Assembly: GCA_008330645.1 (NCBI GenBank) | Contig: VLTN01000032.1 | Span: 310,001-374,000 of the forward strand | Direction of reading: 5' to 3' | Source of the DNA: Cafeteria roenbergensis | Taxonomy: Eukaryota > Sar > Bigyra > Bicosoecida > Cafeteriaceae | Length of the DNA stretch: 64,000 nt | Shown: in pieces, positions 1 through 61,446 of the stretch | Position numbering within the stretch: the stretch's first letter is position 1 | How the letters are laid out: every line of letters begins with the position of its first letter | The notes under the pieces: model-generated | Told to the model about the DNA's origin: nothing | The model's input: the letters and a program-made list of their open reading frames with translations, nothing else | The model's database searches: none | Program-made: the position numbers and the translations under genes

Positions 1-3000
1 GCGGCGGCCGCGGTCGGCAGCCGGCCCTGCCCGCCACCAGCCCCCTCGCCCTCGCTCTCCGCGGCTGCCTCCGCCTCCGCCTCCGCCTCCGCCTCTGCGG
101 CCGCCCGCACCTCTCCCCACTCTGTCGCCGCGGCAGCTGCAGCCTCCGCCCGCGAAGCCGCCGCCTCCCGCATCGCCCCCACGAGCCTGCGCCGCGCCAC
201 CCGCCTGGCCAGCCGCTTGTCGCGAAGCTCCTCCCAGCCCTCGTCGTCGTCCGAGTCGACGCCCTCCGCCTCCTCCTCCTCCTCCCCCACAGCCTGCCCA
301 GACAGCCCCAGGCCCCACCTCTCCTCGACCGCGTCCGCCTCTTCCTCCTCGTCGTAGTCTGCCAGGGCAGGCGCGACGGGCGCAAAGGCCCGCGGGGCTG
401 TGACGAGGTCCACGGGCGCGTACACCCGCACGCCACGCCGGCGAGCCACGTTGGCCAGGCGACGGAGCGGCCCCACCGCAGCGGCGATGACGGACGGCAC
501 TCCCGCCAGCCCAGCGCCAGTGGCCTCAGCCCAGGCGTCATCCGTTGCGGCGAGGTCGACCCCTCCCACGACCGCCGCCCAGGCCACGCCAAGCGCACCT
601 CCAATCACGACCCGATCACACACCAGGGCAAGCGCGGCCGCCGTGGCGGCCGCCTTTGCCACAGAGGAGGGCCCCGCATCCAGCCCGCCGCCGACCACTC
701 CCACCACCGGCCGCCGGACCCCAGCGCCGGCGGCGGCCCCGCCAGCTGCTGCGATGCCGCCGCTGGCAGCCTCTGCCGAGGTGACGGCGCGGCTGGGGGC
801 AGGCACGGCCAGGAGGCGGCCGAGGACGCGCGCGAGGCCCTCCGTGGCAGGCCCGAGCACAGTCAAGCCGCTCGCCGCGCCCGCGCATTCGGCCTCTGCA
901 CCAGCGCCGCGGCTGCCGCCGGAATCGTCCCTACCGGGGCCGAGGGGGGCCGCGCCCGGCTGGACGCGGCGCAACCGCTCCGGTGAGGGCGAGAGCGGGA
1001 CCAGCAAGCCGGCGCCGGGCGGCGACGCCGGCCGCCGCTGGAGCCCTCTCCCGCCCCCGCTTGCTGCGGAGTCTGCGGCCGACACCACAGCAGCTGACGG
1101 GGTCGACGCCGCGCTTGCGGCGTCGTTGGCGGCGGTGGCCGCTGCCTGGCGCGATGCAGGCCGGCCCCTGCCCGAGCCGAGGAGGGCGGGGGACGGGTCC
1201 CACGCCCCCAGCGCCGTGGTGCCTCGGCCCGCGTCCCTCACAGTCGCTCGGTCCTGGACCTCGCGGCGCTCCTCCGCGAGGAGCTCCCGCACGAACGCGC
1301 AGGCGGACCGCTCGTGGGCAGAGGCTGCAACGGCGGCAGACGCCCCGGACGCCACCACCCCGGACAAGGCAAGGCCGGATCCTGCCAGGAGCGCCACGTC
1401 ATCCGCCACCACCACATCGCACAGTGCCCCCAGCCCCGCCCGCATCGCGGCAGCCTCGGCGCAAAGTCGGCCTCGGCTGCGAAGCTCCGCAGTGGACGCG
1501 GCTCGGGCGGCCTGCTGCTGCAGCGCGGCCCTTCCAGCGAGCTCGGCACAGGCCAGCGCAAGGCCAGCTGCGTCTCCCGGCGAGGCGCCGATGCCAGTCC
1601 AGAAGGCGCTGGAAGCACCCTCCGTGCAGAGCCGAGCGCCGCAGGCGCCCACCTGGGGCGCAGCAATGCCAGCCAGCCGCGACCAGCGCCAGGCAGCGGC
1701 GGCGTCGGGCCCTGCCAGACGCGACGCCGACACCGCGGCCCACGCAGCCGCCTCGCCCGGACCCCACGCGGCCACGCGGGAGTTGTCGAGGGCGGCGATG
1801 CCCGTGGCGGCCGGAAGGCGAGACGACGGGCATGCTGCGGGCCACCCGCCGGTCAAACGTTCAGCCGAAGGGTCCGAGGCCACTCCCGCTGCCGTGAGAC
1901 CGACGGCAGAGCCGCACACCAGCGGGTTTTCGAGAACCACCACCCGCGTGTGGGAGCCGCCCTCGGCCTGGCGGACAGCGCGGTCCAGCGCCTCGGCTGC
2001 CTTGGCCGCCGCCTTTGCCGCCCGCGCAGCAGCCCCGGTGGCGGACGTGGCGCCGGTGGCCGCGGTGCGCCCGGACCGGTGGGAGTGGGCCCCCGACCGG
2101 GTGGACGCGCCCCCGCTCACGTAGCCCCGCCCGGCCGCCCCGCGGCCTCCGCCGGCGCCGGCCTCGCCGTGCTCCGCTGCCGCATCGGCGTCCGCCTCGG
2201 TCCGAAGTCGCTCGACCAGCGCGCCCGCGGCCGCCAGCACATCGCTGAACTGGCCACCGGCGCCGCTGCAATCGCCGTCCCGTGCGCCGTCGCCGGCAGC
2301 GGTGGCGTCATCGGCAGCGGCTGGCACCTCCTCGCCTGTTCCGGCCGCGAAGCGTCTCGTCAGCCCCCCAGCCCCGACCAGCCACACGTCGCGACCGCAC
2401 TCCAGCGCCAGCGCCGCGCACACCGGCGCCAGCGAGCGTGGCGCGATCGCGACGGCGCCTGAGAGCCGGGCGGCTCTGCAGGCGGCGCCGCCCTCCGTGC
2501 CGGCGCGCTGCCGGAACACCTGCGCTGCCACCGCCTCGGCAGAGCCGGGCAGCGCCAGGGCAGAGAGCGGCGCGCCGATGGCCGCGGCGGCGTCAGCCGC
2601 CGCCCCAAGCCGCAGGCTGCGCCTCGCAGCGAGGGCCAGTGAGGCGCGGAGGAAGGCATCCTCGGCGGCGGAGGCGTCGGCGTCGGGCCCGCAGGCCGCC
2701 CTGGCCGCCTCGGCGGCGAGCGCGTCGGCCTCCTCCTCCGCGCCCAGAGCCGCCTCAGCGGCGTCGGTGTCCGCGTCCGTCCCCGCCACGGCAACGAGCG
2801 CGCCGGCAGAGCCGCCGGGTGAGCGGCCGGCACCGCCGGGTGAGCGGCCGGCAGAGCCGCCCTCCGCCGCTCCGCCAGCACTGCTCCCCGCGCCCGCGCA
2901 CGACCACTGCGCCGCCGTGCGCGGAGCAGTCACGGCCGCGCAGGCCCACTCCCCGGCGGTTGCGGGGCGGGGCTGCGAGGGCACCGGCACGGCCGGCAGC

Positions 3001-6000
3001 GACCCCTGCGACCCCGCCACCACGGCCACGGCGGCGCCCCTAGCGATGACCGCGCGCACTGCCCGCACAGTGGCCCGCACGGCGTGGTGCGCGGCCACGG
3101 CCGCCACGTCATCGGCGTCCACCCACGGGCCGTTGACCACGCCGAGCGCCGCACGCCTCCTGTTCTCCTCCGCCTCGTCGACGGCCGCACGGGCCTTGGC
3201 CAGAGCGGCGGCCTCTGCAGCAGCGGCGGCCTCGCTCCCGCGGGCCCCGTCGTCGCCAGCGCCGGCGCCCCCGCCGGCGCCCTCCCGGCCAAGCAGAGGC
3301 ACGTCCAGGTCCGCCAGCAGCAGCACGGTGCGCCCGGCCAGGGCGCCCTCCTTGTCCATCGCCGCGACGCCTCCGGGCGACGGCGCGGTCCACGACACGC
3401 ACGCGGCCGCTTCCAGGTCCAGCGCCAGGGCCTTCCGCCGGGAAACGGCGGCAGAGCTCCGGGCTGCCGATGCGGCAGAGCCGAAGGAGGCGGCTGCGAA
3501 GGCGAGCAGACGAGCGGTGCCCTGCAGCGCCGCTGCGACGGCGCCCGCGCTGGCCTCGGCCTCGCTGGGCAGCGCAGCGCCCGGACCCAGGCTGGCGGGG
3601 CCGGCAATGGGCCGCGGCTTGCCGAGGGAGAGCGGCGCCGCAAAGCCAAGCGCCTCAAGGCTCAGCGGCGGGCCAGACGGAGCGATAGCGGCAGAGGCAT
3701 CCGCAGCGGCAGCCGCATCGTCCGGGGCAGAGCCCGTGGCGGCGGCTGCTCGCACAGGCGCGGCGTCAGCGGCCGGCGCAGCGGCGGCATCTGTGGCCTC
3801 AGGCGCCGGCGGCGCGGGCGCCAGCGGGCGCAAGACCGCCTCCAGCGCGGGGGGCAGCGGTGAGCGACGCGGGGCGGAGTCACTCGAGGCGAGCGACTCC
3901 ATGACGGCAGCAACGGCCTTGGCCGCCTCGGCGTCCTCTTCGGCAGCCTCGGCGACAAGCCTCGCCGCCTCCGCCTGCGCCTCCTCCTCTTCCGACCCCA
4001 CGCCGCCCTTGCCGGCCCCGCCCTTCCCCTTGGCAGAGCTCTTCCCCTTGGCAGAGCCCTTGCCCTTGGCACCGCCCGCCTCGGCCAAGCGCTCCTCCTC
4101 GGCCTTGGCGGCGGCCCGCCGCCGCCGCAGCTCCGCCACAGCCGCTGCAGCCGCCGCCGCTGCCGCAGCCATGCCAGACCGAGCCGCATCCATCTGGCCG
4201 ACGTCGCCGCCGGGCACCTCGTCGTCGTCGTCGTCGTCCTCCTCGTCACCGTCCTCCTCCTCCTCGTCCTCGTCATCATCATCGTCATCGTCCTCGTCCA
4301 TGTCCGGCAGGGGCAGCGATTCGGGGTCCACGCCGCGCGCCTCTGCCTTCCGCCGCCGTCGCGCCTCGGCGGCAGCCAGCCGCGCGTCGCGCCGCTCCAG
4401 CACCCGCAGCCCGCGAGCCCCGCCGGCCCCAAGCGCAAGACGGATCACGCCTAGCGCCTGCACTCTCTCTGCATCCGCGTCCTCGTCCCCGTCCGCGTCC
4501 TCGTCGTCCTCCTCCGACTCTCCGGCACCTGCACCTGCACGGGATCGCGGCGCCCCCGAGGCCCCTGCCAGCCCGGCAGCAGCAGCAGCAGCGGAGTCTG
4601 CCTCTGCCTTGGCTGTGAGGGGAATCCACTCGCCGAGCTCTGCCCTGAGCGGGAGCCCAGCCAGCCGACGCGCCGCCGCCACGGCCACCGGCACCGCCTC
4701 CGCTGCCTGGCACAGCACCGCTCTGCCCAGGTCCCAGAGGTCGGACTCTTCCGGGACCGGCAGAGCCGCGTTGGACACTTCCCTCGCCAGCACGGAGCGC
4801 AGCTCCCGCGCGCGCGTCCGCGACAGCGCGTGACGCGTCACCGGCGCCGGTCGGCGGGGGAGCCCCTGTCTGGCAGAGCCGTCGTCCGCGGCGCCACCTC
4901 CCGAGTCCTTGCCCTTGCCCTTGGCAGAGCTCTTCGCCTTGGCAGAGCCCTTGCCCTTGGCAGCGGCCGCTCCCTTGCCCTTCTTGGCGCCCCCTGCCGT
5001 GGCCTCGTGCGCCCGCACCGCCGCCTCCACGGCCTTGACAGCGGCCCGGCGGGCGGCACGGGCGCGCATCTCGGCGGGAGAGGCCCTGGAGGCTGCGAGC
5101 GGCGCAAGCAGGGCGGACAGGGTCGACAGCTTGCCGTCCCACTGGAACGCCGCCCTGGCAGCCTCGCCCCGCTCCCTGGCCTCGGCAAGCTCCGCCTCCG
5201 CCTCCGCCTCCGCCTGCTCGGCCCGCGCGAGGAGCGCCGTCGCGGTGGCCGCCTCCTCCGTCTCTGCAGCCAGCGCCTCCTCCTCGGCGGCCCGCTTGGC
5301 AGCGGCGGCTGCTGCCGCCTCCGCCTCGTCCTCGTCATCCTCCCCGGCCGCTGCGTCCGCCGTGGCGTGCGAGGCGCCACCGCCCTTGCTGGCCTTCCCA
5401 CCCTTGCTGGAGGCCTCGGCCGCTGCAGCCGCCTCGGCCGCCGCCTTGGCCGCCTTGAAGCGGGCCTTCCACGCGGCCTGCGCCGCGGCGTCGCGCTCCG
5501 CCGCCTCGGCCTCAAGGCAGGCCCCCGCCGACGCCGCGATGGCAGCGGCTTCGGCCCCAGCGGCCTCCAGAGCGTCCCAGCGTTGCTCCGTGAAGACGAG
5601 GCCCGGGCAGTGGCGCTCCCAGCGCTGCCGCCGCAGCGCCCACAGCGCCTCGCCGCTCGGCGGGGGCGTGGGGGGCCTCGCCGCCTCCTCCTCCCGCTCC
5701 GCCTCCAGCTCGGCGGCTCGCTCTGCCATCCGCCGCTGCAGGCGCTCCTCGATGGCGCGGCGCTTCGGCCCCGCCTCGTCGGCCTCCGTGGCCACGCCGC
5801 GCAGCGCGATCCTCACCAGGGCCGCGCCGTTGGCTCCAGGCCGGGTGCGCAGCGCCCATGCCTCGCGGAACACCCCTGCCTGGGCCGACCGGAACAGCAC
5901 GGTGGCGGGGAGCTCCTCCCCAGGCAGGATGCTCCCCGACGTCGGCACGATCTGAAAGCGGGGGGCCTCCGCCACGCCGGCCGGCGCCGTATCGGCTCTG

Positions 6001-7766
6001 CTCAGCGGCGCCAGGTCGAAGTACAGGACCGTTGAGCCGGTGTTGCGCAGACCGAGGCGGGCCTCCGCGTGGCCGGCCGCGGCTGCGGCGGCCTCCATGG
6101 TGACGCGAGGCCAGCCGCGAGCGGCGTCCGCCGCAGAGCCGCTGGGGGCACCCACGGTGATGACCTCTCCCGGCGACACCGCCGGGTGGGCGGCATCGGC
6201 GCGCGCGGCACGGCGCACCCCTGCCTCGAGCGGCGCGCTTCCGCCCGGCTCGCCGGTCACCACGGCATCACGGCGAACCACCACGAGGAGGTGCGGGCCC
6301 GGGATGGGGGCGTCTGCCGCGGGGGGCGGCGGCGAGGGCGAGACCCCGCGCCGGCGCCTGTCAGCTGACGCCGAGGGCAGTCGGAAGGACTCCACATCGC
6401 CCAGCCCCAGCTGCAGCGGGGAGGCACGTCCCTGCAGGTCCGAGGGAGTCGGGGCGAGCACCGACCCGCTCTCCGTCCTGTCGAACCCGTCGCCGCCCGC
6501 TGAGCCGGGCGAGCGGGCCCCGCTGCCGCTGACGCCGCCGCCACCGCCGCCGCCGCCGGCGTTGTCGTCGTCGTGCCGCCACGATACGCGCGAAGCCAGG
6601 CGGGCGCGGCCAGCCGCGCTGTCACGGCCGGCCACCGCCCCGACGTCGCCCCTGGCGCCAGGCTCGTCCGCTAGAGGTGGCGAGGGCTGCATGGTCCGCT
6701 CACGGCCCGGGTGGTCGGCCTGGAACGCGGAGTACTCGCGAAACCGCAGGTCAGAAGTGGGGGGTCGGGCGCGAGCGGCCCCTGCGTCTGGGCGGAACCC
6801 TGCTCCAGCGTAGCCGCCGGCGCCGGTGCCGGCGCCATCGTCTCCTGCAAAGTCGTCGTCGAAGCCGTCGAAGCCCACGCCCCCCGCCCCGCCGGCCCGC
6901 GGAGGCGCGTGCGAGCGCCTCGCCCACTCCAGCAGGTCCTCTCCCACCACGCAGAGGGCGTCCGTGGCGTCCACGGGCACGTCGTGGGGGCGCAAGGTGC
7001 GGATGCGGCCCTTGAGCTCGCGGCGGCGGCGCCTGAGCGATGGCGCGTCTCTCCAGTTCTTGCCGTAGGCCAGCTGCCCGATGGCCTGCGTGGATGACGT
7101 CATCTGCGACTTCGTGGACGGCAGAGTGGTCGTCGCCCTGGCCCCGCCCAGCCTGCGCGGCCGCCGCACCACCTCCGCGAGGGGAGCTCCCTTGTCCTTG
7201 ACAGGCACGTAAAGTCCGTTGAAGATGTTCCCCACGAGCACGAACCGCTCGCCTCCGCCCCGAAGGCCCATGGCCCAGCCCTCCGGGCCGTGCCGCTCGT
7301 CGCTGGGCGCGGCCTTCTCGAGGAGGTCGTACTCCTCCACCACCTCCCGCCACTCGTCGGCGCGGGCGAGGACTGTCTTGCCCTCGTCTCGCCCCGAGCG
7401 GCGCGCCTGGCTCTGCCGGATGGAGGCCCACTGCCGCTGGCGCCGCTCCCACAGCGCCCTGGCGCGCTCCTCGCGCTGGAGAGAGAGGCGCTCGTGGGGC
7501 TGGAGGCCGGCGAGGTGGCGCGCCCGCACGCGCTCCTCCTTGCCGCGGGCGGCCTCTGCGCGGCGCTGGAGGTCCACGATGGAGGGGCCCTCCGACGGGG
7601 CCCTTGGGTCACGCGAGGACACGCGAGACTCCGCGTGGAACGAGGCCGCCGCGCCCGGCGGCCCTGGGCTGAGCTTCGAGCCGGCCAGCGTGTCGGGCAG
7701 CGAAAAGCCGACGCCGGTGCCGGGGCGCGAGCCTCCGTCGCTCTTTCCCTCCCGGGACCCGCCCAT
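1..7766 (-). CDS. MYCBPAP-like protein with C-terminal PGK-like domain (3' partial)
   Basis: One reading frame stays open from the ATG at 7764-7766 to the left edge, so at least 2588 codons without an intron. The N-terminal third resembles MYCBPAP, a ciliary central-apparatus protein: a charged helix, a block reading EKAAPSDERHGPEGW (about 7280), and an ASH-like beta domain (about 6060-5790) containing NTGSTVLYFDLAPL and a REAWALRTRPG strand. Then come Ala/Glu coiled coil, two KGKGSAKG-type basic stretches (4985-4905 and 4075-4010) and an Asp/Glu tract. From about 3359 the order of beta-strand motifs follows phosphoglycerate kinase: GRTVLLLADLDVPL, VVVLENPLV, CDVVVADD, FVRELLAEE, PVVGVVGGGLD, DRVVIGGALGVAW, with Ala-rich insertions. 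The PGK basic and catalytic positions are mostly replaced, so an inactive structural domain is inferred. The 3' end is outside the window. The start is tentative: the frame continues upstream and an acceptor-like site lies near 7928. MYCBPAP call moderate to good; PGK-like call moderate. Confidence 0.68.
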   Translation of the reverse strand, partial: MGGSREGKSDGGSRPGTGVGFSLPDTLAGSKLSPGPPGAAASFHAESRVSSRDPRAPSEGPSIVDLQRRAEAARGKEERVRARHLAGLQPHERLSLQREERARALWERRQRQWASIRQSQARRSGRDEGKTVLARADEWREVVEEYDLLEKAAPSDERHGPEGWAMGLRGGGERFVLVGNIFNGLYVPVKDKGAPLAEVVRRPRRLGGARATTTLPSTKSQMTSSTQAIGQLAYGKNWRDAPSLRRRRRELKGRIRTLRPHDVPVDATDALCVVGEDLLEWARRSHAPPRAGGAGGVGFDGFDDDFAGDDGAGTGAGGYAGAGFRPDAGAARARPPTSDLRFREYSAFQADHPGRERTMQPSPPLADEPGARGDVGAVAGRDSAAGRARLASRVSWRHDDDNAGGGGGGGGVSGSGARSPGSAGGDGFDRTESGSVLAPTPSDLQGRASPLQLGLGDVESFRLPSASADRRRRGVSPSPPPPAADAPIPGPHLLVVVRRDAVVTGEPGGSAPLEAGVRRAARADAAHPAVSPGEVITVGAPSGSAADAARGWPRVTMEAAAAAAGHAEARLGLRNTGSTVLYFDLAPLSRADTAPAGVAEAPRFQIVPTSGSILPGEELPATVLFRSAQAGVFREAWALRTRPGANGAALVRIALRGVATEADEAGPKRRAIEERLQRRMAERAAELEAEREEEAARPPTPPPSGEALWALRRQRWERHCPGLVFTEQRWDALEAAGAEAAAIAASAGACLEAEAAERDAAAQAAWKARFKAAKAAAEAAAAAEASSKGGKASKGGGASHATADAAAGEDDEDEAEAAAAAAAKRAAEEEALAAETEEAATATALLARAEQAEAEAEAELAEARERGEAARAAFQWDGKLSTLSALLAPLAASRASPAEMRARAARRAAVKAVEAAVRAHEATAGGAKKGKGAAAAKGKGSAKAKSSAKGKGKDSGGGAADDGSARQGLPRRPAPVTRHALSRTRARELRSVLAREVSNAALPVPEESDLWDLGRAVLCQAAEAVPVAVAAARRLAGLPLRAELGEWIPLTAKAEADSAAAAAAGLAGASGAPRSRAGAGAGESEEDDEDADGDEDADAERVQALGVIRLALGAGGARGLRVLERRDARLAAAEARRRRKAEARGVDPESLPLPDMDEDDDDDDDEDEEEEDGDEEDDDDDDEVPGGDVGQMDAARSGMAAAAAAAAAAVAELRRRRAAAKAEEERLAEAGGAKGKGSAKGKSSAKGKGGAGKGGVGSEEEEAQAEAARLVAEAAEEDAEAAKAVAAVMESLASSDSAPRRSPLPPALEAVLRPLAPAPPAPEATDAAAAPAADAAPVRAAAATGSAPDDAAAAADASAAIAPSGPPLSLEALGFAAPLSLGKPRPIAGPASLGPGAALPSEAEASAGAVAAALQGTARLLAFAAASFGSAASAARSSAAVSRRKALALDLEAAACVSWTAPSPGGVAAMDKEGALAGRTVLLLADLDVPLLGREGAGGGAGAGDDGARGSEAAAAAEAAALAKARAAVDEAEENRRRAALGVVNGPWVDADDVAAVAAHHAVRATVRAVRAVIARGAAVAVVAGSQGSLPAVPVPSQPRPATAGEWACAAVTAPRTAAQWSCAGAGSSAGGAAEGGSAGRSPGGAGRSPGGSAGALVAVAGTDADTDAAEAALGAEEEADALAAEAARAACGPDADASAAEDAFLRASLALAARRSLRLGAAADAAAAIGAPLSALALPGSAEAVAAQVFRQRAGTEGGAACRAARLSGAVAIAPRSLAPVCAALALECGRDVWLVGAGGLTRRFAAGTGEEVPAAADDATAAGDGARDGDCSGAGGQFSDVLAAAGALVERLRTEADADAAAEHGEAGAGGGRGAAGRGYVSGGASTRSGAHSHRSGRTAATGATSATGAAARAAKAAAKAAEALDRAVRQAEGGSHTRVVVLENPLVCGSAVGLTAAGVASDPSAERLTGGWPAACPSSRLPAATGIAALDNSRVAAWGPGEAAAWAAVSASRLAGPDAAAAWRWSRLAGIAAPQVGACGARLCTEGASSAFWTGIGASPGDAAGLALACAELAGRAALQQQAARAASTAELRSRGRLCAEAAAMRAGLGALCDVVVADDVALLAGSGLALSGVVASGASAAVAASAHERSACAFVRELLAEERREVQDRATVRDAGRGTTALGAWDPSPALLGSGRGRPASRQAAATAANDAASAASTPSAAVVSAADSAASGGGRGLQRRPASPPGAGLLVPLSPSPERLRRVQPGAAPLGPGRDDSGGSRGAGAEAECAGAASGLTVLGPATEGLARVLGRLLAVPAPSRAVTSAEAASGGIAAAGGAAAGAGVRRPVVGVVGGGLDAGPSSVAKAAATAAALALVCDRVVIGGALGVAWAAVVGGVDLAATDDAWAEATGAGLAGVPSVIAAAVGPLRRLANVARRRGVRVYAPVDLVTAPRAFAPVAPALADYDEEEEADAVEERWGLGLSGQAVGEEEEEAEGVDSDDDEGWEELRDKRLARRVARRRLVGAMREAAASRAEAAAAAATEWGEVRAAAEAEAEAEAEAAAESEGEGAGGGQGRLPTAAA
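4219..4299 (-). repeat. Asp/Glu codon tract in the MYCBPAP/PGK-like gene
   Basis: GTC, CTC and ATC triplets on the + strand encode a nearly pure run of Asp and Glu of about 27 residues on the - strand, separating the MYCBPAP-like half from the PGK-like half. It is probably a flexible acidic linker. Confidence 0.8.
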
Positions 7767-10109
7767 GCCTCCGCCAGCGAAGCCGTCGTCGGAGGCGTCG
7801 TCCGCCTCGGGGTCGCGAAGGACTGATGTGGCGGCGAGGCTGCCTGCCGCCTGCCTCAGCGCCCCGGAGCGCGTGGACCGGGAACCGTCCCGCGCCAGAA
7901 CGCCGCTGCCACGGCGCTCCACCGGGCCTGCGGGGCAGATACACACCAGCGGGGGAGGGGAGCGGCAGCGCAGTGGCAATGGGCCGGGCGAGCAACGAGC
8001 GGGCCGACGGATGCCAGAGCGACAGCTCGCTGCGGAGGGCAGCGCGGCCTGCCCCATTGACCGGTCGCATGCACACGCAACGGCCAAAGAGTGTTGCCCA
8101 ACTGGGAAGATCGCCAGACAAGCGCTCGGGGATGCTCGCGCGCAAAGGGCCCGAGCTTTCGGCGGCCGGCGTGGCAACGGCCAGGTCGGCAATTTGCCTG
8201 GTGGGCGTCCGTCCCGGCAGGAGACGGTGAAGACCCGCGCCAAAGGCGGGCTGGTTTTTGCCCGGAGGGCTGGACGATTGTGCCACGGGGGCTGCCATGG
8301 CCGCAGGTCACGGGGCGCGCGGCCAGGCGCTAGCTGTTGGGGGCAGGTCTGCGGCCGACTGGCTTTGCTCACCAAGGCTGCGCATCCCGGACTTGCTCGC
8401 CCGTCCGCTGATAACATGCGTGACCGGGTCGCCCGGCGCCCGCATCGGGTCCATCGCCGAGCCTGCGAGGGCGGGGACGGTGCCTTGCACTTGTGGCCTC
8501 GCGTGGCCAGGGCCGGCAGAGCCAGCTTGCCGCCGCCGCCGAGGCACGACGGTGTGCTGCTCGAGTTGTGCACACACACACAGCGCTGGGTCTGCGCGAG
8601 CGGCGAAGCACGCGACAGTCCGACGTATCACGGGTCAGTGTTTTGCTTGAGCGCTCGGCCGCGTTCGCGGGCCCTTGCAGCAGGCCGTGGCCAGCACCAG
8701 GCACGTTTCGTTCCAACCCCGCTCGTGGCTGCAGTCTCAGGCACAAAAGACTGCGCCAGGCGCAGACCAGGAAGTGATCCGCGTGCCTTGCATGCCGGCA
8801 ACCCGTTCACACCGCGTGGGAGCCCTTTCGTGCCGTCGAGGGTTGCACACTCCGGCTGCCGCCGACGGCTGGTTCAATTGTGCCGTGCAGCACCATTCGC
8901 TCGCGACAAACCATGAACGACGTCTTGGCAGGAGAGCATCTGGCTGCACACGAGGCACGCATGACTCAGAGGCAGCCCGCACGGGCACACAGGCAGCCTG
9001 CAAGAAAGCACTGCTGGCATTCTTGGTCGGGCATCAAGCAAAATTCTACGACGGCTGTCCGCCGCCGCTCGCAGCGCTCCGGCTGGAGCGTGCGGCTGCT
9101 GGCATTGGAATGCGTGCCGATTGGCGGGAAGATGCTTCCCGGGGATGCACGGGGCAGGCGGGGAAACGGCAGCGACGAGTCGTGGGCGGTATCGCGGCGC
9201 GCCGGTCAACGTGTTCTGCCGCCGTGCGTCCACCGCCTCAACCGCTTCTGGGGGTCAACTGGCCAGCCCGCATCCAAGCCGCGGAGCGGGCGCTCGAGTT
9301 GTCAAGGCGGGTCCCACGCAACTGGAGCTGCACAGCTCGCGCTGCGCCAGGATTGCCCAACAAGCCGTGACGTCACGGGGAAAGCGGTCGCTGGAAGCAG
9401 CAACAGCCGCCCAGCTGGCAAGCTGTTCGGGTTCCCGTCTTGTGGCCCATGGCAGCGGTCCCCGGCAAGACGAACACAGCGAGCAACACCCATGTCGCCC
9501 TGACTCCCATGCGCACTCATCGGGGGCAGCCCGCACTGGGTCGACCGGAATGCCTGGCGGGCAAGCCTCGGATCTGCGGCCGCGAGCCCGCGCAAGCCAG
9601 CTGAGATTCGTCGCCGCCGCCCTCCGCTGCTGGTCCAGCCAGGGGACGGGTTGCTCGCGTCCGACTCGTAGGCCGTCGGGGTCCTGCCTCTTGTATCCGC
9701 GCGCGCGCAGCGCGGAGGGATTTGGGGGACTGAGCCGCAGGGCGAGAGTGCCATCCAGGATGCACGCGCCAAGGGCGAGCTCGAGCCCGATGGCGATGCA
9801 TTCTCCACAGATCAGCAGTGCTCCAAGAGGCGTGCCCTGCTGGCCCATGGCGAGCGGCGCACGACGGCAGGGCGCTTCCCTCTTGGGGGATCAAGTCTCC
9901 GTCCCGTCCTGCTGTTCTATTCGGTTTTCGCTCCCTTTGCTGAGCGACGCAGGTTGACCGGTTCCCTTGCCGCGACACTGCGCCTTGCCCCTGCAAGCTG
10001 CAGACGCCCAGAGCCCGCCGAGTGAGCCGCATCGGCAACAGGGCAGCGACAGCCCAGGGCCTTTCTCGCCTCGGGTGACCCGGCCCCGAGCTTCGGAGCG
10101 ACCGAGGAA
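7767..10109. other. Long divergent intergenic region, lower G+C
   Basis: This 2.3 kb lies between the 5' ends of two divergent genes; the other divergent spacers here are 0.2-0.64 kb. Base composition drops to roughly 55-63% G+C in many lines. I see a (CA)6 run at 8571-8582, one copy of the GGCAGAGCC motif at 8515, a short GC hairpin followed by five T near 8230-8255, and an acceptor-like TATCTGCCCCGCAG on the - strand ending near 7928. None of the open frames shows a recognisable domain. The region probably holds both promoters and perhaps unplaced 5' exons of either gene. Confidence 0.5.
8571..8582. repeat. (CA)6 microsatellite
   Basis: Six CA units in the divergent spacer, preceded by GTG so that the purine-pyrimidine alternation extends slightly further. 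Unlike the three longer TG/CA tracts in the window it is not between convergent genes. Confidence 0.85.
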
Positions 10110-15701: not shown

Positions 15702-16077
15702 CAAGCTGGCATAGCGAAGCAGCGGCTCTGCGACAGCTGGCGCCTGAAACCTCAGTCGCGCCCACCAACAAGCCTTCGACGATGGCAAACTCGCTTTGCG
15801 ATTCTGCAGAGCTGACTCTTGTGGCGCAAGCCGTTGCGACATATTGCGTGAATGCGCCGCGGTCATTCTTGAGCGCTAGATACATGTGCACTTGCTCGGG
15901 CAGCAGCCACCTTGGCGCCAACACCACGCGCCTGCCTTTGTTTCGCTGCGTCACCGCTTGGAAGCTGGCCCGGTCATCTCCAGGCCAGCCGGTCGCTCGA
16001 AACCGGCACACGCAACGCGAATGACGACAGCTCGCATTGTGCACGCATGGGCACACCGGGCACTAACACGCCGCTCA
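15702..16077. other. Convergent intergenic spacer
   Basis: The 376 bp between the stop codons of the B''-like and Aquarius genes must hold both 3' ends. I see no coding frame with a domain, no canonical AATAAA and no TG/CA tract. Confidence 0.6.
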
Positions 16078-21816: not shown

Positions 21817-22028
21817 TCCAAGGCGGCTTGGCAAGAGAGAGGACGCCGCTCGCGCTTGCTGCGAGCCCTCCTGGTCCGGGAGCCGTGTGGCGGTCGGCGG
21901 GGCGGCCCGCTACGCTTGCCCTCTGGCAAGCTGTTGACCACTGCCGGGCGGCAGAGCCCGGTCCAGCCGGCCGGCCGGCCGGCCGGCTCATCGCCGCCGA
22001 GAGGTCGCCACTTGCTGCTCCCCCGGCC
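21817..22028. promoter_or_regulatory. Bidirectional promoter region AQR / MAP kinase
   Basis: Only 212 bp separate the divergent start codons of the Aquarius and MAP kinase genes, so both core promoters must share this stretch. It contains five CCGG units in a row (21967-21986) and one GGCAGAGCC (21950). No TATA box is evident. Confidence 0.55.
21967..21986. repeat. (CCGG)5 palindromic run
   Basis: Five tandem CCGG units lie about 40 bp upstream of the MAP kinase ATG. The run is self-complementary and could form a cruciform, or be a dense CpG methylation target. Confidence 0.8.
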
Positions 22029-31316: not shown

Positions 31317-31354
<38 letters not shown>

Positions 31355-37742: not shown

Positions 37743-40700
37743 ATGGACAAGGCAGGAATCAACTCTGAGGCCGTCGGCACGGAGAGCTTTGCGGATGCCG
37801 CGTTCTACCTGCGCATCGCCAGCGTGCTCAAGCTCGGGACGGAGCGCCGCGTGGAGATGGCCGACCTGCCGCCCCTGCTGCGGATGGACACGACCGGCGG
37901 CCTTGCCCACGAGCTCGCGGGAACCGATCCCGCCCACCCCCTGTGGTGGCGCCTGTACGTCTCCATGCGCGACCGCGTGTCCCTGGCGGCCGTGGGCGCC
38001 GTGCTCCACGCGGGGCTCAGCGTCGCCGTGCCCATGGCCGTGCGGCTCATTGTGGACGGCGTGCAGCAGCGCCGCCCGGAGGCCGTGTGGTACCCGTTCG
38101 TGGCCTTTGCGCTGCACGTGAGCTCCACCTTCTGCAACCAGCAGGCCCAGGGCATCGGTTTCCGCGTCGGCCAGCGCGCCCGCGCGATCCTCACGTCCCT
38201 CATTTACGACGCCGCCGCCAAACTGCGTCAGGGCGAGTGGGCAGCGGTGGGCTCCAGCCAGGGCGCCGTGGGCACCATGCTCTCCAACGACGCCACCAAG
38301 CTCTTCGAGCTGGGCCCCTTCATGCACGCCGTCTGGGTGGCCCCCTGCATGATCATCGTGGCCTGCGCCTTGCTATACACCGCTCTGGGCGTCGGCGCCA
38401 TCGCCGCGCTCGTCGTCATGGCCGGGCTCGTGCCCCTCAGCGCCATGGTCGCCCGCGCGGTGCAGTCCGCCCGCCTCCATCACCTGCGCGTCACCGACCA
38501 GCGCCTCAAGGCAGTGAACGAGTTTCTCGGCTCGGTCAAGACAAGCAAGCTCTACAGCTGGGAGCGCGCCTGGCGAGACCGCATTGACGCCCTCCGCGCC
38601 CAGGAAATGTCCTGGATGTTCCGCGAAAACGTCTTCTTCGGCCTCGCCATCGCCTTGCTGATCATGGGCCCCGTGCTCGGCGCGCTCGCGGCCTTTGCAA
38701 CGCACACCTTGACCGGGGGCGAGCTCTCCTCCGGCCTCGCCTTCCAGTCGCTCGGCCTCATCTCCGTGCTGCGGTTCCCCCTGCAGCAGATGGCCAACGC
38801 AATGACCTCGGCCACGCACGCCAGGGCGGCGCTGGGACGCATCGAGGGGTTCCTCAGAAGCGTGGACAGGGTGGTGGCGGCCAGGGGCGCCGCTGCGGCC
38901 GAGGCAGAGGCCGTGCTCACGCCGGCCGAGACCGTGGCTGTGGCGCCAGTTCGCTATTCTTGGCCCCGCTCGGCGCACGCGGCTGCAGCCTCAGCCGCCG
39001 CGGCGAAGTCGGCAGCGGGGACGGCCGGCGGGCGCCGCAACGACAAGGCGGGCACACCGGGCCCGGCGCCCACCCGCGCTGCCGCCCGCGGTGGCGAGGA
39101 CGACGACGGGCGGGCGGAGGGCGGCTTCGCGGTCACGCTGCCGTCAGGCCTAAGCGTGCGCCCGGGGGAGCTGCTCCTGGTGTGCGGGCGAGTGGCCAGC
39201 GGCAAGTCAACCCTGCTTGCAGGCTTGCTCGGCGAGGCCGAGGCGGAGGCGCTCGCGACTGCGGACAGCTGCCCTGCCGCCGCCGCGGACGGCTCCCCTG
39301 CTGCCGCCGCCGAAGCCGCCGAGGCCGCTGCGAGCCTCGCCCTGCGCGGGGGCTGCGCCTTCGCCGCCCAAACCGCCTTCCTGCTCTCCGCGTCAGTGCG
39401 CGAGAACATCGTCTTCGGTCGCAGCTGGCACGAGGGGCGGTACCGCCGCGCAGTGTGGGCCGCCTGCCTGGCGGAGGACTTGGTGGAGATGCCCGCGGGC
39501 GACGCCACGGCGGTGGGCGAGGAGGGGCTGGTGACCAGCGGCGGCCAGCGCGCCCGCATCGCGCTCGCTCGGGCGCTTTACGAGGACATTGGCGTGTGCA
39601 TCGCGGATGACGTCATCAGTGCGCTCGATGCCGGCACTGCGTCGCGTGTCGCGCGGCGCGCCCTGGGCCCCCGCGGCATCCTCCGTCGTTCGGCCAGGGT
39701 GCTGGCCACCCACGCCGTGCACCTCGGGTGCCTCGCGGACCAGGTGCTCGCGCTCGACGGCGGGAGGGTCATCTACCAGGGCCCTTGGTCGGGGTTCGAG
39801 GGCACGGACGCGCACAGGAGCCTGCTGGAGGCGGAGGCTGAGGAGGACGGCGTGTCCGTGGACCAGCTGAGCGCCGCGGGGAGCGCCGCGGCGGGCGGGG
39901 GCGAGGTCTCTCACGAGGGCAGAGCCGCCGCCAAGGACGCAGCGGACGAGGCAGCCGCCGACGCCGCGGCCTGCCTTCTCGATCCCTCGGACGAGTCGGC
40001 GGCGTGGTGGGCCGTCGACCTCTCGGGGGGGCGGGGCAGCGCGTCGGGCATCGGACACGACGCCACCGGCGTCACGGCCAGGCTTCTGGCGCCCGAGACG
40101 GCGGCCCCCGCCACCGCCGCTGCCGCCGCGAGCGCCCCGCCGCGCGACGACGAGGCCAGCGCTGCCGCCATCGAGCTGGCTCCGGTCGGAGGCGGGGCCG
40201 CTTCCCGGGCCGACGCCGCCGCGAAGCCGCTTACCGCGCCGGGCGGCGAGGCCGCGGCCCCCGTGGGCTCCAAGATCATGACGGAGGAGGCGCGCGAGCG
40301 CGGCCGCACCTCCTGCGCCTCCATCTGCCTCTGGCTTCGCGGCGCGGGGGGCTGGTGGTGGGCCGGGGCCGCCGTGCTCGCGCTCTCTCTGGAGCGTGTG
40401 TCCTTCGTGTCCGCGGACTTTTGGCTGTCCAACTGGGCCACGCAGGCTGACGTGGCGGCGGGCCGGGAGCCCGCCTCCAGCGCCACGGCCGGCCTCGTGC
40501 AGCTCAACCTGCCGCCGCTCACGCCCGAGTCGGCCCAGTCCGTGTACCTGGCAGGGTACTCCGGCATCGTCGCCGTCACTCTGCTCGCCGTGCTCTGCCG
40601 AACCCTCGTCTTCCCGCTGATGTGCTGGGTCGCCGCGGGCTCCTCCTTCCGCTGGATCCTCTGGGCCGTCCTCCGCGCCCCGTTCCGCTTCTTCGAGACC

Positions 40701-45760: not shown

Positions 45761-48700
45761 TCAAGGCTTGGTCGGCCCCGGTCTTCCGCCGCTGCGCTGC
45801 TGGGCTGAGGCACGCGACTGACCGCGTCTGCCTCGGGTCCCCCTGGCTGGCTTTGGCGATGGCGCGGCGGCAGCAGCTTCCGCCTTGGCCAGGCGAGCCG
45901 CGAGGGCAGCGTCGTCGCGCGCCCGCTGCTCTTCTGCTGCCTTCGCTTGCTGTGCGGCCATCACGCTTTCGAGCCCGGCGCTGGCCGCGCCACCGCCCGA
46001 CCACGCGCCACCTAGCGTGGCAGTGCCCCCTCTGCGACGGGGCTTGGCGCCAGGCGACTGGGCAGCGGCCGACAGGATCGACCCGAGCGCTGGCACGGAG
46101 CCCGCCGACGCCGATGCGCCAAGCCGCGAGCTCGCCCCTCCACCACGGCCGCTGCCTGCGCTCGCCCCTGCCCCGCGGGCAGGCCCCCACCCCCCGCTGG
46201 CGGCGGCGGCACGGCGCGCGGCAGCCGTTCGCTCTGCCGACTGCTCCGCCGCCGCCCGCTGCGCGGCAGCCTTCAGCGCAGCCGCCTGCCGCGTCGCTGC
46301 CTCCTTGTCCTTGGCGCGCTGCGAAACCGCTTGGGTGGCCAGGATGCTGCCCAGCGACGGGGCGGCCGCCCGCGCGACCGGGGCAGGGGCTGCGGCGGTC
46401 GCTGGTGCTGGATGCCGATGGTTCACAGCAGGCTGCGTGGTCGCGATCCCGCGCCCCAGAGGCTGGCTGTGCCCCGCCCCTGCACCAGGACCCAAGCGCG
46501 GCTGGGCAGAGCCGCCCACGGCACTCGATCCTGCCAGTGATCCTGCCGGAGACGCGGCTCCTCGCCCCTTACGGCCCTTGCGGCGGGAGCCTCCGGACGG
46601 CGCTGCTGTCGGCACGGCGAGGCCGAGGCCAAGAGCAGCCGCTGGCGAGGCCAGGGAGCCAGCACCAGCAGGCGCCGTCGAGCCCCGAGCAGGCCCTGTG
46701 GTCGCGCTGCGGCCCGGCTCGAACACTTGAGCCGATGAGCCCCCACCAGCCGGCAGGGCGCCTGATCGAGCCGGTGTCGTAGCCCCGTGCTGCAGCCGCG
46801 GCGACACCGCTGCTGCGGCTGCGGACTGAGGCTTCGCCCCTCCCCACGGGGCCGCCCGACCGCCTGTCCAGCTGCCATCGGCGCCGCGGACCGCGCCGCC
46901 GGGTGGCGTGACGCCCGGTGGCAGCGGCGGCGGCGGCGGCGGCGGCGGGGACGATGCCATCGGCCCCGCCTCCGAACGCCTCGGATCCGCCCCGGCGCCC
47001 TCCTCCGCTGCGAGCTGGATGGCCTTGTGAAGGCCTGACCCCAGCACGAGGGCGGGCTCCAGAGCGGCGGCCGCGGCAGCTACGTCCCACGTGAGTGCCT
47101 CGCCGTCGGCAGCCGCCGCTCCCGCCCCGGCCGCCGCCCCTGGCGCCGCTGGGAACGCTCCACGGCCGAGACCGCCTGCGTCCAGGCGACGGGCGAGCGA
47201 GGCGCCCGCAGCGGCCCCGCGCGCCACAGTGGCGCGCTGCTCTGCCGAAACGCCCTCCGCTGCGGCTGCGGCGGCAGCGACCCTGCCCATCGAAGGCCGG
47301 AGCGCCACCGCGCAGAGCTCAAGCAGGGCGCCCCATCTGCCCACTTCGCGGCAAAGGCTGGCTCTGCCGCGCACTTGCCTCATCTGCTGCCTGTCCAAGC
47401 CTCTCAGCGCGACCCGACCACCCCCAGTCGAGGCCATGAAACCGCCCATGCGGGCAGCCGCGGCCATGGTGGCCTCCACACAGCGCAGGCAGATGCCCGT
47501 GGCGTCATCGAGGCGCCTCACCGCGCTGCCCAGCCGCCGGCAGAGCACAGCAGCAGCAGCCACGGCCGCCGCCTCCGACACCTCCACGGGCGCGCTGGCT
47601 GGCTCCGCCGCAGGCCGGGCAGCTCCTGCTGGCGCCTCTAACGGGTCCCCTGCCCGGGCCAAGCCCGCCGCCTCCATCGTGAGCGGGGCCGCCCCCGACA
47701 GCGCCCAGCCCTGCCGAGCGCTCGCGAGCCACTGGCGAACCACGTCCTCCGCGGTGGAGCCGTCGCCCGATCGCTCCCATGCGCTCTGCGCTGCAGCCCC
47801 AGAGGCGTCGCTCGGCGTGTCGGCGGGCGGCGCATTGGCTTGGCTGCCAGTGGCTCTGCCAGTGGCTCTGCCAGCAGCTCTGTCGGTGGCCTTGCCTCGG
47901 CTTCGCTTCCCCTTGCGTGGCTTGGACGCGGCCCCTTCCGCCGCCTGCGGGCTGGCCCTGCCGGGGTGCTTGCCGCCGGGAGCGCTCTTGCCCGAGGCCG
48001 TAGCCGTGAGAGACGCCGCATCGCTCACGGCCTGCTCGTCCGCGCGCCACCCGCCGCTCACGTAGCCAGCGATGGAGATTGCTCCTTCGGCCGCGGCCTC
48101 GGCGCTGGCGGCCGCCGCTCCGCCGTCCCCGGAAGAACCAGCCGCCGCGTCTACGGCCGAAGCCGCAGCAGCCGCCGCAGCAGCGGCCCTCGCGATGTCC
48201 GCCTCCTCCGGCCACGTGAAGAGCAGCTGGCAGCGACGCGCCGCCTCGTCCTCTGCGAGCGCCCCGGCGGCCACGGCCGCCGCCCTGGCCTCAGCCGCGG
48301 CCTCTCTGGCCCGCTGTCGCGCCGCGCGGCTCTGCCGGAGCCTTGCCCGGCCGCGCTCGCCGAGCCACCCGCCCGCCTCCACCTGCGCCGCTCCTCTGGC
48401 CAGGGCGTGCCGCCGAGCGTCGTCCCAGCCGCCGCCGCACTTGCTGTCCGTGAGGGCGAGGATCGTGTCGAGGTTGCTGGTGGCCCAGGCCGCGGCAGCC
48501 GCGCCCAGGTGGCGGCTCTGCCCGGCGGCGGCAGCCTCCATGGCAGGCCCAACCTGCGACAGCGTCAGAGCGCCCCCCGCCACCAGCGCCGCCCCAGCAA
48601 GCGCTCGGAGGCTGGGAACCGCATGAGAAGCCCCCGGCCCGTGAATCGCCTTCCAGCCACCCAGCTCAGCGCCGCGACCGCGCGCTCCAGAGAGCAGGCC

Positions 48701-51700
48701 GCCCGAGGCAGAGACGGCGGCGGAGGAGGCCTCTGCGGCACGAGCGGCGGCGGCGGCCGCTGCAGCGGCAGAGGCGGCATCCGCAGCCCCGCCTCCGAGG
48801 GCGGGCTCGGACCTCACGGCGCCGAGGCCTCCTCCTCCTCCTCCTCCTCCTCCTTCCGCCCGACCTGCAGCGGCGGCGTCACCCACCCGTCTGCGAGCGC
48901 GCGAGGCGGTTGAGGCGGTCGACGCGACGGGCCGCGAGCCGGGCACGGACCACTCCAGCTCTGCAATCCGCAGCTCTGCCACTTCGTTGGCTGAAACGAG
49001 GGACATGCCGATCCCGCCGGCCCAGTCAGCGTCCTCGCGCCTATGCGTGGCAGGCCCACGGGCAGGCGAGGCGCCCGGGACGAACCCTTCCGGACAGCTG
49101 TGACTCCTGCCGAGACCCGCAGACGCGTCTCTGGGAGTGGGTTCGCGACCAGAGGGGTGCAGTGCGCCGGCGGCGCATCGTTCCACCGACAGGAGCGTGT
49201 CGGTCCCGAGCGCGGCCGCCGCGGCCGCCTCCGCCTCCGCCCTGCATCGCTCCAGCGAGGGCAGCGGAGGGGGGGCCACTGGCGGCTCCGCAGTCGCCAC
49301 CAGGACGATGCTGTGCCGGCCACCCGCTGCCACGGCGAGCGCCCGACGCACGCCGGGAAGCTGCGTCACCGCCCCGGGAACAGCCACCCCTCCGGCCGTC
49401 ACTCCGGGGCCAGCCCCAAGCGCCCCCGTTCCAGCGTGGCCCAGAGCAAAGACGCAGCCGTCCCGGGCCAGCACCAGTGCGTGCCCGCCGGCACCGCCGG
49501 CTGCCGCCACGCTGTCCGCCCTCACACCCGCCAGCCACAGAGCCGCGTCGCGCCTGGCCACGGGGGCGCTGCGCCTGGCAGAGCCACCGGCATCGCCGCC
49601 CCCGCTGCCGCCCGGCGACGCCGACCCAGCGAGCCGTGGTGACGCCGACCCACCGAGCCGTGGCGACGCCGACCCAGCCCCGCCGCCGCGCCGGCCGCCG
49701 CTGCCACGGCTGCCCCCTCCCCACGTCCAGACGCCGCCGTTGACGTCCACTGCGACACACATCCCCTCCGACGCCGCAACAGCGGCGAACCGCGCCCGAC
49801 CCCCTGCCGCTCCAGCGCGGCCCCCTGCAGAGCCGCGGGCAGAGCCAGCGTCGGGTCCAGCCAGAGACAGCCCCAGCTCCAGCTCCGGCGGGTTCCGGCC
49901 GGCAGAGCCGCTCGGCTCCAGCGGCGTGGACCGCGGCTCTGGCGAGCCCCGCGGAGACCGATCGCCGGCCCGCCCGCCCGCGCCTGGGGAGCGCCGCCCG
50001 CCCGCGCCTGGGGAGCGCCGCCCGCCCGCGCCGTCCCCGCTGCCGCTGCCAGCACGCCGTCTGCCGCCGCCGCCCCGGGGGCCGCCTCCCTGCCCGCCTG
50101 CCCCGTCTCGCGCCTTCTGCTGGGGCGGCAGAGCCCTCTCTGCCGCGTCGCTCGGCGCCAGACGCCCTTCCATCAGCGCGCGGTTTCGCAGCTCTGCTGC
50201 CTCGCGCGCCTGCGCGGGCGCGGCCCACATCGGCCGCTTGGCGGCCCGTTTGGCGGCGAGCTTGACCGTCTGGACGGCGGCCGCTCCGAGGTCCGCAACG
50301 ACCTTCATCGGCTCCGCGGCGCCGACGCCCCACTGCCACGCCGTGCCGGCGGCTGTGAGCGCGATTGCGCAGCGACCGCCTGCTGACACGCTCACGACCC
50401 GGCCCGAGTCCTCGGCGGTTTCGCGGTCGTGCCTGCCTTTCGCGGACTTTGCCCACCCCGCGGTTGACCACACCGGCGAAACCGCAGTGGGCGGCAGAGC
50501 CACGCCCCCCTTGCCGGCACCGGCCCCGCCGCACTGGCCGGCCTCGTCGTTCCCCCAGGCCACGGCCTCGCCGCCCGCCGTGGCCGCCAGAGCGAAGTCG
50601 TCCCCTGCAGCGACGGCCACAGCGTGCTGGCGGCGCAGGGCACCCGCGTCGACGCAGCGGGGGGTCAGCACTCCTGCCGGCCGGCCGTCTCTGCCCCCGC
50701 CGCCGCCGCGGCGCGAGGGTGGCTGCACGCCGCACTGCCCGGACGAGTTGTCTCCAAATGCCCACACAGCGCCTCGCCGGCTCAGCACGAGGGAGAAGCC
50801 TGCCCCGCACGCGGCGTCCACGGCCCCGCCGCCCCAGCTGCCGGGCACCTCCACAGGGGTGAGAGACGCGGTTTCGCTGCCGAGACCCAGCCTCCCAGAC
50901 CGCCCCGACCCCCACGCAAAGACCCTTCCGTCAGCCGACACGGCCAGGCCGTGGTCCGGGCCGACTGCGACCCTGGCCACGCGCACTCCGGAGCCCGCGG
51001 CGAGCCCCACGAGCGGCCGGGGAAAGGCCGCGCCCCCTGCGCCTCGGATGGGCAGCGCCAGGCCGCTCTGACCGCAGCCCAGCACAGAGGTGGATACGCC
51101 CGCCTGCGAGTCGTCCGAACGCCCCAGGCGGAGCGAGAGCGCCTCCGCCTCTGCCGCGGCCGCCTCGGCGTCGGCAGCGTCGCTCTCGCCGTCCCAGCGC
51201 CAGGGCGGGCCAGCGGCCACGGCGGCGGCCCACCCGCCAGCGCCGGCCGACCCGGCGGCCAGCTGCGACATCGCCGCCAGCGCCATCGCCGCCGAGGGAC
51301 CCTCCTCCCCGGCTCCCGCCCCCGCCCCTGTGTCTCGGCTTCCGCCCCCCGCCCCGCCGCGCTGACGATTTGCCGCCGCCGATGAAGCCCCAGCGACGCC
51401 CCCTGCAGAGTCGATGACGTCATCGAGGCTGCCCGCGCTGGAGCCGCGGCGCCGACGCGCCGACGCCGGGGGCGAAAACACCGGCATCGATCCTGCCAGC
51501 TCTGCAGAATCCGGAAGGATCGATCCCGGACCGGTGCAGCGCAGCGTGGCGGAGTGTTCAGGGGAGGCCGCGACGGCTGCGGCGTGAGCGTCTGCGGCCA
51601 GACCGGCAATCGCGTCCGCTGCCGCCGCGACGGACACGGGGCGGAGCAGGCGCGCCCTGGCGAGCGCTAGGGGCGCGCGCTGCTGCAGTCTGGCCAGCCC

Positions 51701-54100: not shown

Positions 54101-54393
54101 CGGGCCCGGTCCACTGCGGAGGCCAGCGACGGGCGCGCCTCTCTCGCCAACCAGAGCGGGATGCCCGCTGCAGCGCACGCCACGGCTTCCACGGAAGGTG
54201 GGGTGCGGGGTCCGCGGCAGCGGCGGGCGTCGATCTGCGCACGGCAACAAGCGCCCGCGGCCTCTGCCGGCTCTGCCGGGCCGCCGTTTGGCGCCCGTTG
54301 CTCGCGGGAGGGCTCTCACTCGCTGCGCCCCTCTGGCTGCAGCGTGACAGAGGGAGAACCGCGGCCCCGGCACGTGACCTCTTGCTCCGTTCT
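54101..54393. promoter_or_regulatory. Bidirectional promoter region Abraxas-like / kinesin-5
   Basis: The 293 bp between divergent ATGG starts contains one GGCTCTGCC at 54269. No TATA box is evident. Confidence 0.5.
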
Positions 54394-61111: not shown

Positions 61112-61446
61112 GGCTGGCCCCGGCCTTCGCCCAGGCCCGCTCGCCGCGCCGCGGCTGGCCACTCCAGAGCCTTGAGTCCAGGCAGGGGACCCTTGGCGCC
61201 CCCTCCGCCTGCTCCGCGATCGCTGGTCCCGCCCCGGTTCGCGCGGCGCTGGCGGACTGTGCCCGCAGCGGGCTGCCGGCAGAGCCGACCAAACTCAAAG
61301 CTGCGGCAGTTGGCCGACCCCGCGCGAGCGCGCTGGCGACCCGCACTCAGGATCCCACGGACTGAGGCCGCGCGGGCGGAGCAAAGGGCGACCCAAGCAT
61401 CTGGCAGGGGCGTTGTCAGGGCTGGTGCGTCGGTGCCGGGGGAAAG
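61112..61446. promoter_or_regulatory. Bidirectional promoter region nuclease / BRE1-like
   Basis: The 335 bp between divergent ATGG starts contains one GGCAGAGCC at 61278. No TATA box is evident. Confidence 0.5.

Follow-up and report, generated by a model that had tools for sequence, protein, structure and literature searches.

The window analysed here is a 64,000-nucleotide stretch of the Cafeteria roenbergensis genome (contig VLTN01000032.1, positions 310,001 to 374,000), and the element in question is a 9-base DNA word, GGCAGAGCC, which occurs in it in 37 exact copies (27 on the + strand and 10 on the - strand) spanning positions 1905 to 61286. Coding segments were called with a home-made hidden Markov model (HMM), and six such segments hold 33 of the 37 copies, while four copies lie outside them. 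An earlier note on this DNA, made from the letters alone, had given about 36 copies between 1905 and 61286, in five genes and four spacers; our count agrees with this, and the four copies outside coding segments were recovered, whereas the coding segments number six. The genes include a first (-) gene in which Pfam matches a MYCBPAP domain, as the name MYCBPAP-like had suggested, a (-) gene for the spliceosomal helicase Aquarius, a eukaryotic gene that shows the host not to be cyanobacterial, and an RCC1/ankyrin-repeat (-) gene. The note had also held RPC1, TAF6 and kinesin to be free of copies; the interval 8524-17692, in which it placed RPC1, indeed contains no copy. The copies of the word are as follows, with coding segments as called by the HMM.

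1905..1913, +, MYCBPAP-like (-) gene, segment 3-7931
2538..2546, +, MYCBPAP-like gene
2805..2813, +, MYCBPAP-like gene
2850..2858, +, MYCBPAP-like gene
3474..3482, +, MYCBPAP-like gene
3726..3734, +, MYCBPAP-like gene
4050..4058, +, MYCBPAP-like gene, in 18-bp tandem repeat 4014-4077
4759..4767, +, MYCBPAP-like gene
4872..4880, +, MYCBPAP-like gene
4941..4949, +, MYCBPAP-like gene, in 18-bp tandem repeat 4911-4963
7409..7417, -, MYCBPAP-like gene
8515..8523, +, HMM-noncoding segment
17693..17701, +, Aquarius (-) gene, longer unaligned stretch, read EALP
19358..19366, +, Aquarius gene, aligned block, read MALP (MAQP in the solved Aquarius)
19562..19570, +, Aquarius gene, aligned block, read LALP (identical in the solved Aquarius)
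19942..19950, +, Aquarius gene, longer unaligned stretch, read GSA
20019..20027, +, Aquarius gene, aligned block, read RLCL (YLCL in the solved Aquarius)
21950..21958, +, HMM-noncoding segment
25268..25276, +, (-) gene segment 24622-28500
25949..25957, +, (-) gene segment 24622-28500
26239..26247, -, (-) gene segment 24622-28500
26281..26289, -, (-) gene segment 24622-28500
30167..30175, -, (+) gene segment 28856-30283
39918..39926, +, (+) gene segment 37743-42461
46505..46513, +, RCC1/ankyrin-repeat (-) gene 45863-52192 (Pfam)
47360..47368, -, RCC1/ankyrin-repeat gene
47852..47860, -, RCC1/ankyrin-repeat gene
47864..47872, -, RCC1/ankyrin-repeat gene
48328..48336, -, RCC1/ankyrin-repeat gene
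48514..48522, -, RCC1/ankyrin-repeat gene
49577..49585, +, RCC1/ankyrin-repeat gene
49838..49846, +, RCC1/ankyrin-repeat gene
49901..49909, +, RCC1/ankyrin-repeat gene
50127..50135, +, RCC1/ankyrin-repeat gene
50493..50501, +, RCC1/ankyrin-repeat gene
54269..54277, -, HMM-noncoding segment
61278..61286, +, HMM-noncoding segment

The word is strongly over-represented in the window and throughout the genome. Base composition predicts 2.0 copies in the window, close to the two to three of the earlier note, giving an observed/expected ratio of 18, and Markov models of orders 1-3 predict 3.4-3.8 (3.4 at order 3). At orders 5 and 7 the expectation climbs to 12.3 and 34.7, since the sub-words then carry the excess themselves. 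Additionally, we examined 20 stretches of 10 kb picked blind (positions 100001-110000 of each of contigs 1-20), which together with the window make up a 264-kb sample. These 20 stretches contain 68 copies where order 3 predicts 9.0, and seven control words lie at or under expectation there. In the whole sample, GGCAGAGCC shows the top order-3 ratio among 9-mers with at least 30 copies, except for two GAC trinucleotide repeats. The nuclear genome (36,303,456 bases or 36.3 Mb, 167 contigs) contains 10,998 copies, 5,553 and 5,445 on the two strands, or 303 per Mb; base composition predicts about 1,055-1,103, a ratio of about 10, and the reversed word, used as control, occurs 994 times. The genome-wide excess over chance that had been proposed is thus confirmed, and copies are about twice as dense in the window as in the whole genome (0.58 versus 0.30 per kb). 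The 11-mer CGGCAGAGCCG, which the earlier note gave for many copies, represents a sub-class, 3,210 of the 10,998 copies. Two other words that are no simple repeat are also over-represented in the 264-kb sample by order 3, namely CGAAACCG (33 versus 6.9) and CGCAAGCGA (32 versus 7.5).

To define the word, we counted all 18 variants with one base changed at positions 2-7 in the 264-kb sample, and five of them across the genome. In the sample, 17 of the 18 stand at 0.3-1.5 of a masked order-3 expectation, the remaining one having 3 copies versus 0.8 (ratio 3.9). Genome-wide, GGC[CGT]GAGCC occurs 6,025 times against about 6,000-6,700 expected, and GGCA[CT]AGCC occurs 1,263 times (12,261 minus the 10,998 copies of the word) against about 1,500, so that these core variants stand at 0.8-1.0 of expectation. 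In contrast, two changes at the edges keep the excess, with 5,077 copies of GGCAGAGCT against about 438-450 and 3,584 of TGCAGAGCY against about 612-642 by base composition genome-wide. Since core changes abolish the excess while edge changes need not, the word is the asymmetric KGCAGAGCY, of strict core and tolerant edges, with GGCAGAGCC as its best form. The full motif has 19,659 sites in the genome, one per 1.85 kb or 541 per Mb. The base 5' of the word is C in 68% of 105 sampled copies. A depletion of near-words in our first table mostly vanished once the word was masked, and therefore no claim is built on it.

The near-palindrome with hairpin-forming arms described in the earlier note does not hold. 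GGCAGAGCC is not self-complementary and thus no perfect palindrome, and GGCAGAGCT, which breaks an arm, is as enriched as GGCAGAGCC. In the 264-kb sample, combinations of positions 1 and 9 that restore the arms are not enriched; the bases flanking the word do not covary, with 43 complementary pairs out of 106 versus 42.0 expected, and every other GGCNNNGCC stays within 1.7 times its expectation. The hairpin idea falls because pairing-restoring enrichment, covariation and a second enriched GGCNNNGCC are all lacking. Separately, in one sampled stretch (L021, 9919-9936) two copies directly abut head to head and so make up a perfect palindrome of 18 bases, and a second head-to-head pair, of the 11-mer, lies on contig 2 (116484-116503).

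Within genes, the excess arises from synonymous codon choice rather than from inflated tripeptides. The HMM, self-trained and three-periodic, called 193 kb of the sample coding and 70 kb not. Coding copies number 33 in sense and 56 in antisense orientation, against 5.0 and 5.9 after synonymous codon shuffling within segments, and noncoding copies number 16 against 3.2 expected. For KGCAGAGCY, 67 sense and 82 antisense sites compare with 11.7 and 11.1 on average after synonymous shuffling, and noncoding DNA has 26 where 8.3 are expected. The copies fall in codon phases as 15, 6 and 12 (sense) and 33, 2 and 21 (antisense), and the excess is clear in five of the six phase classes, the exception being antisense phase 2, which reads RLC (2 versus 1.4). 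The alternative that all copies trace to amplified Ala/Gly/Ser codon tracts in a single codon phase does not apply. Compared with shuffled proteins, GSA occurs 137 times versus 112 (standard deviation 10.5) and is the sole tripeptide somewhat raised, whereas GRA (104 versus 108), ALP (74 versus 73) and AEP (51 versus 47) are not. The share spelled by the word is another matter: 33 of 137 GSA (2.6 expected), 15 of 104 GRA (0.6), 21 of 39 G-ALP (2.3) and 12 of 25 G-AEP (2.6). TCT encodes 45 of the 137 serines in GSA and 28 of 462 where GS precedes a residue other than alanine, and the minority codons TCT, AGA, GCT and GCA all go up in word context. The description of the word as not a protein repeat is supported by the near-shuffled tripeptide frequencies, the shifted codons and an enrichment that extends to both orientations and to noncoding DNA.

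We also measured silent occupancy in segments above 600 bp, using four contexts that already contain the other bases of the word and need one silent choice to complete it. Such opportunities were turned into the word in 78 of 116 cases, against a background of 10-20%; the values were 17 of 31 (55%) in genes with low GC content at second codon positions (GC2) and 61 of 85 (72%) in high-GC2 genes. The log-odds of the silent sites give a scaled strength of 2.1-2.9, and position 4 gives 2.3-2.4 genome-wide. Because the excess runs via silent codon choice inside genes, what is kept seems to be the word as DNA and not the proteins. An artefact of codon usage, peptides or base composition could draw on the density of the word in high-GC2 genes rich in Ala, Gly and Pro, but the excess does not reappear after synonymous shuffling or in Markov controls up to order 3, and the codons that rise are minority ones; we regard this hardly credible explanation as refuted by these controls.

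The copies appear to have been made in place. Flank conservation reaches about one base per side, and only 1 of 5,460 flank pairs shares at least 30 of 50 identical bases (60%); the flanks are unrelated, and the word is therefore not a dispersed repeat. In the Aquarius gene, for which readings as GSA, ALP and LCL had been noted earlier, the five copies read EALP, MALP, LALP, GSA and RLCL. Three of the five in this one gene lie in blocks aligned by phmmer to the solved Aquarius (entry 5MQF), which we take to be the human protein: LALP is identical there, RLCL stands opposite YLCL with LCL identical, and MALP stands opposite MAQP, while EALP and GSA lie in longer stretches left unaligned. These findings point to copies made in place rather than inserted. 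That they are remnants of a transposable or tandem repeat is a reading we can scarcely entertain: a few do lie inside short tandem repeats of the window (4014-4077, 4911-4963 and 47844-47896), but the conserved flanks are too short, copies occur in aligned protein blocks, and core-mutated relics are not in excess. As for the 18-bp arrays 4014-4077 and 4911-4963 of the MYCBPAP-like gene, they hold the word together with its T-ended form, a route of local copy multiplication. A search of the genome with one 3.6-kb stretch returned itself and 13 matches of at most 93 bases, and thus no allelic copy of that stretch.

The word was next compared with HIP1 (GCGATCGC) of cyanobacteria. According to PMC4390886, HIP1 occurs at 300-2700 per Mb with an observed/expected ratio of 55-228 in most cyanobacteria outside group C1, its deviations concentrate at the outer bases around a strict core (section 2.6), cognate methyltransferases of HIPs are generally present in cyanobacteria, and the cause of HIP1 is unsettled. 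Like HIP1 and the alternative HIPs, the present word is short, genome-wide at hundreds of copies per Mb, strict in its core and deviant at its outer bases. Unlike HIP1, which is bacterial and a perfect palindrome, it is asymmetric and belongs to a eukaryotic nuclear genome, and its ratio is about 10 genome-wide and 18 in the window. By analogy, it appears to work like a HIP, yet it is no HIP by definition. The HIP1-like genome-wide word proposed earlier is supported by the genome excess, the core/edge pattern, the unrelated flanks, the silent shift and the enrichment in both orientations and in noncoding segments, while the palindrome and hairpin part is not supported. Transferred from HIP1, one explanation holds that the word is methylated by a methyltransferase and preserved by repair, and the strict core, tolerant edges and density within the HIP1 range agree with it. 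However, a six-frame search, which ignores introns and is no proof of absence, gave no match to the C5 DNA methyltransferase profile PF00145, which matched 10 of 14 control genomes; this weakens the C5 route and contrasts, as far as it goes, with the methyltransferase link of HIP1. The MT-A70 profile (PF05063) was uninformative, matching no control genome. We consider the methylation route improbable.

Other known systems offer partial parallels. Chi sites, KOPS and DNA-uptake words of bacteria are over-represented, recognised as DNA and tolerated in genes; the present word is likewise over-represented and tolerated within genes. Chi and KOPS are strand-biased along replichores, whereas the 11-mer shows no strand runs and no long-range strand bias on contig 1 (40 of 76 neighbours alike among 77 copies, p 0.39). 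Nothing in the data suggests a role in DNA uptake, the other parallel drawn in the earlier note. Eukaryotic transcription-factor and recombination-hotspot motifs have a core of 7-9 bp with soft edges, and the word shares this form, as expected of a protein binding site. To our knowledge, such motifs are not tenfold enriched across coding DNA via silent codons; the word here is so enriched, and is scarce at gene starts.

The explanation we favour, to which we give about an even chance, is that KGCAGAGCY is a double-stranded DNA recognition word of HIP1-like behaviour, held by weak selection or biased repair. Copies would arise and stay by point changes, in coding DNA largely silent ones, and a fitting sequence would be favoured about tenfold over variants with a single changed core base (odds ratios give a scaled strength of about 2.1-2.9). 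A putative sequence-specific nuclear protein would recognise the word within gene bodies, and the favour would stem most likely from weak selection for binding, or else from recognition-coupled repair or conversion bias. A mutational hotspot is unlikely because many different neighbours would need pushing to one word, and an activity that reads the word as a whole is the simpler account.

Several observations weigh against the favoured explanation. The coding calls come from the home-made HMM, not from annotation, and the AEP context in low-GC2 genes goes the opposite way (1 of 5). Density tracks GC2, i.e. low-complexity proteins (Spearman 0.51, 73 segments), with 0.22 per kb in low-GC2 and 0.71 per kb in high-GC2 genes, a trend that arises largely because constrained proteins offer fewer chances, and the ratio of word to near-word varies among loci (p 0.003). 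Together, these indicate that opportunity and gene type shape the map. In the 264-kb sample, copies are clustered (43 adjacent pairs below 500 bp versus 24 expected) and neighbours share a strand in 60 of 87 cases. Moreover, 30 kb taken as three 10-kb stretches in a word-poor part of contig 1 contain 1 copy, a background level. On the other side, scarcity of the word at the 5' ends of coding segments is suggestive and speaks for the favoured explanation. In the 42 complete coding segments above 900 bp, the first fifth holds 0 of 47 exact words (0 of 22 in the window, 0 of 25 at other loci) against 13 of 74 near-words, and 5 of 82 KGCAGAGCY sites fall there, compared with 35 of 172 near-words (Fisher 0.003). 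Over their first 300 bp, 17.1 kb in total, coding segments hold 2 KGCAGAGCY sites, and near-words are also somewhat low there, at 22. This pattern is suggestive because it came to notice only after the data had been inspected and depends on starts called by the HMM; for the exact word against near-words it is significant outside the window (Fisher 0.023) and not significant inside (0.11).

One of the three sparse stretches is mostly a tandem array: contig 1 carries at least 8 kb of tandem repeats at 431992-440000 (the best-fitting units measure 231 and 339 bp, and a shorter form 108 bp), which reach the end of the fetched stretch and may be a satellite or a repeat-protein gene. Another stretch, in the word-poor, lower-GC part of contig 1 (L034, 536-6710), has overlapping opposite-strand frames of 1,206 and 1,064 aa, neither with a Pfam match at E 0.001. 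A 3,310-aa frame (stretch L035, 15-9947, +) combines phospholipid-translocating P-type ATPase and adenylate/guanylate cyclase catalytic domains, and resembles the ATPase-cyclase fusions that occur in alveolates.

The density and strand data bear on an RNA-level element, such as an mRNA or splicing signal. Copies are denser in coding segments (0.46 per kb, 89 in 193 kb) than in other segments (0.23 per kb, 16 in 70 kb), and the same-strand neighbours point the same way; however, the enrichment in both orientations relative to the gene (33 sense, 56 antisense) and in noncoding DNA makes this very unlikely. The main rival to weak selection is recognition-coupled repair or shielding, and in its form without benefit, a mutation or repair bias would produce the word as a by-product, either by word-favouring resolution of heteroduplexes or damage (biased gene conversion) or by shielding of the bound word. 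A bias of this kind, acting on the whole word, fits the counts, as the core variants counted genome-wide (5 of 18) show no excess. We know of no mechanism for such bias on a 9-base word in eukaryotes, which counts against it. On the forward strand of contig 1 (first 1.22 Mb; the first 100 words and 89 near-words among the matches listed), the ratio of word to position-4 near-word varies regionally (p 0.0003), as regional bias would have it, but significance is lost once clusters have been thinned to 2 kb (p 0.085). A repair ratchet was proposed for HIP1 by Elhai (PMC4390886, section 3.4), and strain E4-10P is a diploid with haplotype-specific k-mers, according to PMC6972860. Bias without benefit is possible, though we find it rather doubtful.

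A more far-reaching reading, tentative and somewhat less probable than its being wrong, is that KGCAGAGCY would be the first HIP-like word in the nuclear genome of a eukaryote: an asymmetric 9-base site, present about twice per gene, which selection maintains in gene bodies for the binding of a putative dedicated chromatin, repair or self-recognition protein, strongly enough to reshape silent codons genome-wide while gene starts are spared. No eukaryotic counterpart of such a word was found in the open-access literature as judged by titles and the starts of abstracts, and no prior report of the word itself was evident among the titles listed for it. The string 'methylat' occurs 0 times in each of three Cafeteria papers, PMC6972860 among them. 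The term 'motif' is absent from PMC6972860, and in the passages shown from the other two it refers to virophage promoters, protein motifs or a reference title.

Why some genomes carry one scattered short word is an open question even for HIP1. According to PMC6972860, Cafeteria roenbergensis is now named C. burkhardae, strain BVI has 70.1% GC, and four strains have published assemblies with PacBio and Illumina reads. The light-harvesting profile PF00504 gave 0 matches in the genome analysed here, in keeping with a heterotroph and one ground for rejecting a haptophyte host, although the profile matched 1 of 14 control genomes and the result is weak by itself. The question is testable here because the word is asymmetric and eukaryotic, four strain assemblies with reads exist, and the silent-site signature is strong: selection, biased repair and mutation shielding predict different polymorphism among strains. 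Codon-usage and motif-finding work in C. burkhardae should allow for the word.

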